Shown here: one piece after another, positions 46,803 through 48,197 of the stretch
How the letters are laid out: each line of letters opens with the position of its first letter
Position numbering within the stretch: the stretch's first letter is position 1
Translations under genes and position numbers: made by a program
Notes under the pieces: model-generated
Databases searched by the model: none
Told to the model about the DNA's origin: nothing
The model's input: only the letters and a program-made list of their open reading frames with translations
Assembly (NCBI RefSeq): GCF_000143845.1
Contig: NC_014363.1
Location: 1,659,186 to 1,723,185, forward strand
DNA length: 64,000 nt
Reading direction: 5' to 3'
Source: Olsenella uli DSM 7084
GTDB lineage: Bacteria > Actinomycetota > Coriobacteriia > Coriobacteriales > Atopobiaceae

Positions 46803-46919
46803 CAGCAGGCACACACGGCAGGCACGCGCGGCAGGCGCATGCAGCAGGCACGCGCGGCAGGCATACACGGCAGGCATACACGGCAGGCATACACGGCAGG
46901 CATACACGGCAGGCACGCG
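46803..46919. repeat. Nine tandem copies of a 13-bp repeat
   Basis: Immediately after the hcp stop codon are nine copies of a 13-bp unit, consensus CGGCAGGCATACA; units 5 to 8 are identical and the outer ones vary (CACGCG or CGCATG endings). There are no spacers, so it is not a CRISPR array. The unit is not a multiple of three and no ribosome site precedes it. Low-complexity Cys/Pro-rich frames across it are not credible genes. Slippage is the likely origin. Confidence 0.9.
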
Positions 46920-47007: not shown

Positions 47008-47317
47008 TGGACGGGAGAGCAACTTTTGTGAGTGAAGTCAGAGGTAAAATCACAATAACTCACCACACGTCCGTTTTCGGACGCCCTCTGGATGGTAGAG
47101 GAGCTACTGTGAGTCATCTGGCACGACTACTCACAGAAGTTCCTCTCCCATCCGCCTTTTTCACACCTTGCGGACACGTGGAGAGGTACTGTGAGTCTCG
47201 TCCTGCAAGCCACTCACAATACTTCGTCAGCCGTCCCTAAGACTCTCAAAAATGGATGCGTGGCGAGTTATTGTGAAGCCCCCCGGCATGCGACTCACAA
47301 TAGCTCGCCACACGTCC
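47008..47317. repeat. Array of four long hairpins with an ~82-bp period
   Basis: Four imperfect palindromes start at about 47008, 47090, 47171 and 47254, a spacing of 81-83 bp. Each has TGTGA and TCACA 18-19 bp apart at the top of the stem (47027/47050, 47108/47131, 47190/47214, 47272/47295). Most also keep GGAYG...CRTCC at the base. Units 2 and 4 form stems of about 25 and 23 bp with only two or three mismatches or G-U pairs. Their middle parts differ (AGAGGAGC against GTGGCGAG) while each remains self-complementary. The array lies between the convergent hcp and glnQ genes and contains no coding sequence I can support. Confidence 0.85.
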
Positions 47318-47346: not shown

Positions 47347-47410
47347 GCCACTGCCACTGCCGCCGCTGCCGCTGCCACTGCCGCTGCCGCCGCCACTGCC
47401 GCCGCCGCTG
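47347..47410. repeat. GCC/ACT triplet microsatellite
   Basis: A run of GCC, ACT and GCT triplets in threefold register lies just beyond the glnQ stop. On the minus strand it reads as GGC/AGT/AGC codons, a Gly-Ser-rich stretch in frame with glnQ after its TAA. It is probably a slippage-prone satellite. Read-through of the stop would add a Gly-Ser tail. Confidence 0.8.
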
Positions 47411-47417
47411 ACATTGC

Positions 47418-48197
47418 CTAATGCCCCCTGATGGAGTCCAGGAAGTCGCGAGCACGCTCGGTCTGGGGATGATCGAAGAACTCCTCGGGCGCACCCTCCT
47501 CCATGATGCGGCCATCGGCCATGAACACCACGCGGTCGGCCACGCGGCGGGCGAAGCCCATCTCGTGCGTGACGACGATCATGGTCATCCCCTCGCGCGC
47601 GAGCTCGACCATGACCTCGAGGACCTCGTTGATCATCTCGGGATCGAGCGCCGAGGTGGGCTCGTCGAAGAGCATCGCCTTGGGGTGCATCGCCAACGAG
47701 CGAGCGATGGCCACGCGCTGCTGCTGGCCACCCGAAAGCTGGGCGGGAACCTTCTGCGCCTGCTCGGCGACGCCCACGCGCCGCAGGAGCTCCATCGCCT
47801 CGGCCTTCGCCTGGTCCTTGGGCGTACCCAGGACCTCGATGGGACCCATGGTCACGTTATCCAGGATCGTGCGGTGCGCAAAGAGGTTGAAGGACTGGAA
47901 GACCATGCCCACCTCGGCGCGCATGGCGGCGAGCTCCTTGCCCTCCTGGGGCAGGGGCTGGCCCTCGATCTCGATGCATCCCGAGTCGATGGTCTCCAGA
48001 CGGTTGATGGTGCGTATCATGGTGGACTTGCCCGAGCCGGACGGCCCGATGACCACCAGGACCTCACCCCTGCGGACAGTCAGGTTGACGTCCTTGAGGA
48101 CGTGCAGGTCACCGTAGTGCTTGTTGACGTTTTCAAGACGGACGACGGGCGTTTGACGGACGACGGGCGCTTCGCTGTTCTGCTGCTCAGAGGCCAT
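47418..48197 (-). CDS. Polar amino-acid ABC transporter ATPase (GlnQ-like)
   Basis: A 259-residue PAAT-family ATPase. It has [20 protein letters not shown] (Walker A), the Q-loop [41 protein letters not shown] and [18 protein letters not shown] 48197 lies 19 nt after the stop of the adjacent permease gene. It is the last gene of a four-gene operon with the binding protein and two permeases. Glutamate, aspartate or glutamine is the likely substrate class. Confidence 0.94.

Follow-up and report, generated by a model that had tools for sequence, protein, structure and literature searches.

The sites read by MatP (matS), Noc and SlmA number a few dozen across one chromosome and are sequence-specific, each set being read by one protein. 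Each such site is a single short palindrome of about 13–20 bp. The ends of Tn7 or Mu carry several sites of ~22 bp or longer per end, spaced for multi-subunit assembly. Dispersed chromosome-organiser sites are covered in two reviews (PMC3116907, PMC4726725). In the repetitive class, PMC3733652 gives REPs as 20–40 bp in length, and PMC2817692 describes BIMEs as acting as protein-binding sites.

Here we describe a set of arrays from the oral bacterium Olsenella uli that share features with all of these. With REP/BIME elements and RAYT-borne REPINs they have in common dispersed intergenic copies, alternating palindromic units, regular spacing and a preference for gene 3′ ends. They differ from REP/BIME in having a unit of 64–65 bp plus a 17-bp linker, arms without covariation, a fixed six-site core with a dyad and far more divergent copies, and in the absence of RAYT from the genome. 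They resemble the MatP, Noc and SlmA sites in their number and in their dispersal over one chromosome, but where those are single palindromes the O. uli sites are 25 bp in length and form helix-phased arrays of six to eight. They also resemble the Tn7 and Mu ends in having several long sites spaced as for multi-subunit assembly; in contrast to those ends they lack near-identical copies and a transposase of the families searched, and their spacers are saturated.

Arrays of a 25-bp site in the O. uli genome

Our window is the whole stretch of 64,000 nucleotides of O. uli DSM 7084 DNA that was analysed. The initial annotation described four TGTGA-N18/19-TCACA units with GGAYG/CRTCC ends and a period of ~82 bp, and this was borne out at 47009–47317, where the unit starts are 81, 82 and 82 bp apart (Table 1). 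Further copies were sought in the same genome, as had been proposed there. The pattern TGTGAN{14,24}TCACA occurs 74 times on each strand, where its reversed control occurs once, and most of the matches fall in runs at intervals of ~82 bp. We find ~27 arrays, of which 22 are full and five have only 2 to 4 recognisable sites. Because these arrays exist, the possibility that the locus has no further copies falls away.

Table 1. Sites and linkers of the array in the window (positions are those of the window)
Feature	Position	Strand	Sequence	Remark
Half-site 1 (optional outer)	47009..47033	+	GGACGGGAGAGCAACTTTTGTGAGT	PWM 35 bits
Half-site 2 (core)	47048..47072	-	GGACGTGTGGTGAGTTATTGTGATT	PWM 30 bits
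Linker A, 17 bp	47073..47089		GTTTTCGGACGCCCTCT	T-tract adjoins site 2
Half-site 3 (core)	47090..47114	+	GGATGGTAGAGGAGCTACTGTGAGT	PWM 33 bits
Half-site 4 (core)	47129..47153	-	GGATGGGAGAGGAACTTCTGTGAGT	PWM 36 bits
Central linker X, 18 bp	47154..47171			Dyad axis; near-random sequence between arrays
Half-site 5 (core)	47172..47196	+	GGACACGTGGAGAGGTACTGTGAGT	PWM 28.5 bits
Half-site 6 (core)	47212..47236	-	GGACGGCTGACGAAGTATTGTGAGT	PWM 36 bits
Linker B, 17 bp	47237..47253		CTAAGACTCTCAAAAAT	Mirrors linker A; A-tract adjoins site 7
Half-site 7 (core)	47254..47278	+	GGATGCGTGGCGAGTTATTGTGAAG	PWM 28 bits
Half-site 8 (optional outer)	47293..47317	-	GGACGTGTGGCGAGCTATTGTGAGT	PWM 35 bits

A weight matrix for the half-unit finds ~166 sites in the genome at ~30 bits each. 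The motif is degenerate and 25 bp in length, GGAYG...TGTGAGT. It begins with GGAYG, continues with S, W, G and R at positions 7–10, A at 13, R at 14 and T and W at 16–17, and ends with TGTGA at 19–23, usually followed by GT. TGTGA is near invariant among the sites, and positions restricted to Y, R, S or W are spread along the whole 25 bp. Successive sites alternate in orientation, with start-to-start spacings of 39–40 bp head to head and 42–43 bp tail to tail. The mean of ~41 bp is four turns of B-DNA. The two arms of a unit are separate instances of this DNA motif, each independent of the other.

All 22 full arrays possess a six-site core of orientation -+-+-+, to which outer sites may be added; site 1 is present in 11 of the 22 and site 8 in about 8. 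The gaps between sites 2 and 3 and between sites 6 and 7 are 42 bp in every full array (22/22). The core spans 205–206 bp in 17 of the arrays, the other 5 having spans of 216–217 bp, and in array L027 one site has moved by 11 bp with the span unchanged. Every departure from the common spacing beyond 1-bp jitter in the full arrays is one of 10–11 bp, corresponding to one helical turn. Some of these departures may share descent (L039 with L042, and L035 with L038), so that the six helical-turn departures would represent perhaps three or four independent events.

The site positions differ in profile beyond what is given by shuffling within arrays (permutation p < 0.001). Of the 15 possible pairings of the six sites, the mirror-image one (2–7, 3–6 and 4–5) has the smallest profile distance, 0.471 against 0.441 ± 0.064 for interchangeable positions. 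When linker B is reverse-complemented it has a consensus in common with linker A (RTTTTTSGRRGCCYY), in which the T-tract adjoins sites 2 and 7. As a whole, the element is symmetric about a dyad.

Between arrays the sites are 67–73% identical, while the loops and linker X are 28–31% identical, close to the 25–27% that composition alone would give. Linkers A and B lie at 43–44%, and no pair of arrays goes beyond about 73% identity. As the sites are conserved while the loops and central linker are near random, we take the sites to be under selection. Functional binding sites look like this, with the sites kept and the spacers drifted, and a decaying mobile family would show the opposite.

A subclass of A+T-rich, mutually alike loops (TGTGAAAA...TTTTCACA) is found at L026:3260–3323, L041:2870–2933, L041:7007–7070 and L044:2767–2830, and a related AGTTTTT-AACT insert occurs in three arrays with a loop longer by 10 bp. 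Two simple repeats flank the array in the window. Between the array and the hcp gene are 8.6 copies of a 13-bp repeat in tandem (GCAGGCACACACG, 46805–46916), and a GCCGCT/GCCACT microsatellite of 6–18 bp (47347–47418) lies between the array and a gene for an amino-acid ABC transporter ATPase.

Comparison of the two arms of a unit

It had been suggested that the middle of the stem differs between units yet stays self-complementary, and that such compensatory change implies selection for structure, as RNA, DNA cruciforms or operators. The first statement, and the second as it bears on RNA or cruciforms, fail on comparison with the whole family. In the window array the mid-stems of units 1 and 3 contain clear mismatches (in unit 1, GGGAGAGCA against GTGTGGTGA), and across the family the arms are statistically independent. 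For 58 units the left arm was compared with the reverse complement of the right arm, and the identity within units was the same as that of arms shuffled among units, being no better over the whole arm or over each part of it. The observed number of identities was 11.45 in 18 positions, with 11.32 expected (p = 0.29).

Analysis of 63 aligned units gave the same result. Within units 76.3% of cells are paired, against 75.7% after shuffling, with 89 of 500 shuffles as high. Pairs with a change on both sides number 14, against 13.6 in the shuffles, and the covariation score of 0.167 (0.155 when shuffled) was reached in 46 of the 500 shuffles. Nor was there any excess of pairing from one unit to the next (R_i with L_i+1, and L_i with R_i+1). 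The region of the window array does fold better than shuffled sequence (z = -8.0), as a region composed of inverted sites will, and the apparent compensation between arms arises because both follow a single degenerate consensus. The lack of covariation is as expected of independent protein sites, and not of a stem. We note as a caution that arrays of inverted protein sites can mimic covarying RNA hairpins when few units are seen.

Genomic placement and the nature of the arrays

We consider, with a probability of about 0.6, that the arrays work as double-stranded DNA, each presenting six to eight 25-bp sites to one putative sequence-specific protein, and that this protein wraps or bridges the chromosome. 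The protein would sit on one face of the helix at every site. Its subunits would be paired, the rigid 42-bp tail-to-tail spacing of sites 2–3 and 6–7 holding them together, so that ~230–310 bp might be wrapped or bridged into a defined nucleoprotein body. We infer the wrapping or bridging from the helical phasing and the symmetry. The site of the putative protein is about five times longer than the initial annotation recognised, and at 25 bp and 30 bits it is rather long to be read by one ordinary helix-turn-helix domain, which counts against this reading. If protein is bound, each array would form a regular nucleoprotein platform with dyad symmetry, its spacing matched to the helical pitch, and the genome would contain ~27 of them.

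The arrays are intergenic, apart from one of the 27 that slightly overlaps the end of a predicted gene. The flanking genes are convergent for 8 arrays, co-directional for 16 and divergent for 3, with orientation taken from a simple codon-usage gene caller, in whose calls some long gaps (L032, L037) may hide missed genes. In 13 of the 16 co-directional cases the array is closer to the 3′ end of the upstream gene than to the next start (p = 0.02), with medians of 132 bp to the 3′ end and 304 bp to the start of the next gene. The initial annotation placed the array at the 3′ ends of convergent genes. As a general rule the convergence does not hold, with 8 of 27 arrays so placed, but the preference for 3′ ends does. 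Along the chromosome the arrays appear to favour mid-arm regions, but the departure from uniformity is only weak (KS p = 0.20, with Kuiper p = 0.01 in a test chosen post hoc).

Pfam analysis of the immediate neighbours revealed no functional theme. They are a mixture that includes EF-G, DnaK, pyruvate kinase, UvrA, transporters and the Leu-, His- and Met-tRNA synthetases. The arrays mostly sit just past the ends of genes and away from their starts, and lack the theme of a regulon, which suggests a role in chromosome organisation, anchoring or insulation rather than in the control of promoters. This is the weakest step in the argument.

RNA, cruciforms and operators had all been offered as explanations in the initial annotation, and it is the last of these, in the sense of a DNA-binding protein using TGTGA-N18-TCACA, that survives our analysis; the compensatory-change argument for the two structural proposals fails. 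In a rival reading the arrays might be the operators of a large regulon, where a transcription factor, possibly as several dimers, represses or activates the neighbouring genes. At least one gene start lies beside 19 of the 27 arrays (16 co-directional and 3 divergent), and GntR/UTRA regulators account for three of the 54 array-flanking genes (at L024, L027 and L034). However, the eight arrays between convergent genes, the position of the co-directional arrays nearer to the 3′ end than to the next start, and the mixed housekeeping character of the neighbours all speak against operators, and we regard this explanation as unlikely.

The arrays could alternatively be a non-autonomous, MITE-like mobile element comprising back-to-back transposase-binding ends. 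This would account for the dispersed intergenic copies with sharp boundaries at the outer sites. The dyad symmetry and subterminal repeats are reminiscent of transposon ends, and common descent could explain the position-specific profiles. Yet no arrays are closely alike, the best being 72% identical over 315 bp, and near-random spacers between conserved sites are the opposite of what decaying copies present. Moreover, the transposase and recombinase families searched (RAYT, PF01797; serine recombinase, PF00239; rve, PF00665) are absent from the genome. A mobile origin of this kind is therefore improbable. Five matches to PF00589 are present in the genome, and by their coordinates none adjoins an array. 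PF01797 was detected in 12 of 30 genomes searched with 0 matches in O. uli itself, so the earlier exclusion of REP elements stands. So does that of CRISPR and tRNA arrays; no Rfam family reaches its gathering threshold, and the repeats are degenerate and alternately inverted, unlike the near-identical direct repeats of CRISPR, the Pfam analysis bearing on cas genes having covered the immediate neighbours of the arrays.

The proximity of the arrays to gene 3′ ends, together with the T-tract after unit 1 and the A-tract before unit 4, would suit transcription terminators or 3′-end stabilisers of the mRNA of flanking genes. The presence of the hairpin-forming outer sites 1 or 8 nevertheless does not track the direction of incoming transcription; the left gene is forward in 6 of 11 arrays with site 1 and in 5 of 11 without it. 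Nothing terminator-like was found in the window array, and terminators have no need of an invariant TGTGA. We attach little weight to this explanation. Structured RNA or DNA cruciforms, with four hairpins selected for pairing, would fit the folding of the window array and the 76% of stem cells that pair, but are rejected by the arm-shuffling tests, in which pairing within units equals that of arms drawn randomly from the family, and are made highly improbable by outer hairpins that are partnerless in most arrays (site 1 missing from 11 of 22 and site 8 from about 14), by spacing that shifts by turns of B-DNA, and by the lack of any Rfam family at gathering score, where the only matches to the palindromes were sub-threshold ones to eukaryotic miRNAs.

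Candidate proteins and occurrence in other genomes

We have sought proteins that might bind the sites. A search with PF02195 found only the origin-proximal ParB in the genome, and there is thus no Noc paralogue. HU/IHF (PF00216) was undetected in O. uli and in 39 relatives of the same family and order, with 9 of 14 control genomes positive. Since those relatives also gave no detection, this absence is not specific to O. uli, and the whole order may lack HU/IHF. No binding protein emerged from the families covered, namely RAYT, serine recombinase, rve integrase, HU/IHF and ParB paralogues. A search for literature on repeats in O. uli found none among the papers covered.

Allowing one mismatch, the half-site pattern gives 82 and 77 matches in O. 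uli and 0–3 in 59 relatives, which is the control level. A longer pattern gives 49 and 54 matches in O. uli and one stray match in 120 other genomes of the family. Scans of GTDB genome contigs and IMG/VR with a pattern for the N18 loop form only, which recovers 24 units in the O. uli genome, did not find the motif, and neither did searches of phages and plasmids; very near genomes may be missing from these collections. The HisRS regions of 80 relatives contain neither the same motif nor a comparable array of alternating ~41-bp sites. The slightly raised scores that were inspected in relatives came from repetitive GC-rich DNA or unrelated palindromes. Among the genomes searched, which included no other species of its genus, the arrays thus appear to be restricted to O. 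uli.

We put forward, tentatively, a species-specific system of chromosome architecture, in which a putative protein with an unusually long, 25-bp recognition sequence would assemble with mirror symmetry, six to eight subunits at a time, on ~27 intergenic platforms and would wrap or bridge them, in an order where HU/IHF is not detectable. If protein is bound at the arrays, they would offer a clean natural setting in which to study how DNA is wrapped or bridged in such a clade, and would bring to light a new protein with long DNA recognition.

Other Atopobiaceae possess different long, REP-like intergenic palindromes of alternating orientation, such as GAGTCTGTASTT. These are located at L104:430–660 (Thermophilibacter gallinarum) and in the regions of L098:11378 and L075:18004. 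Several Atopobiaceae genomes do have RAYT genes.
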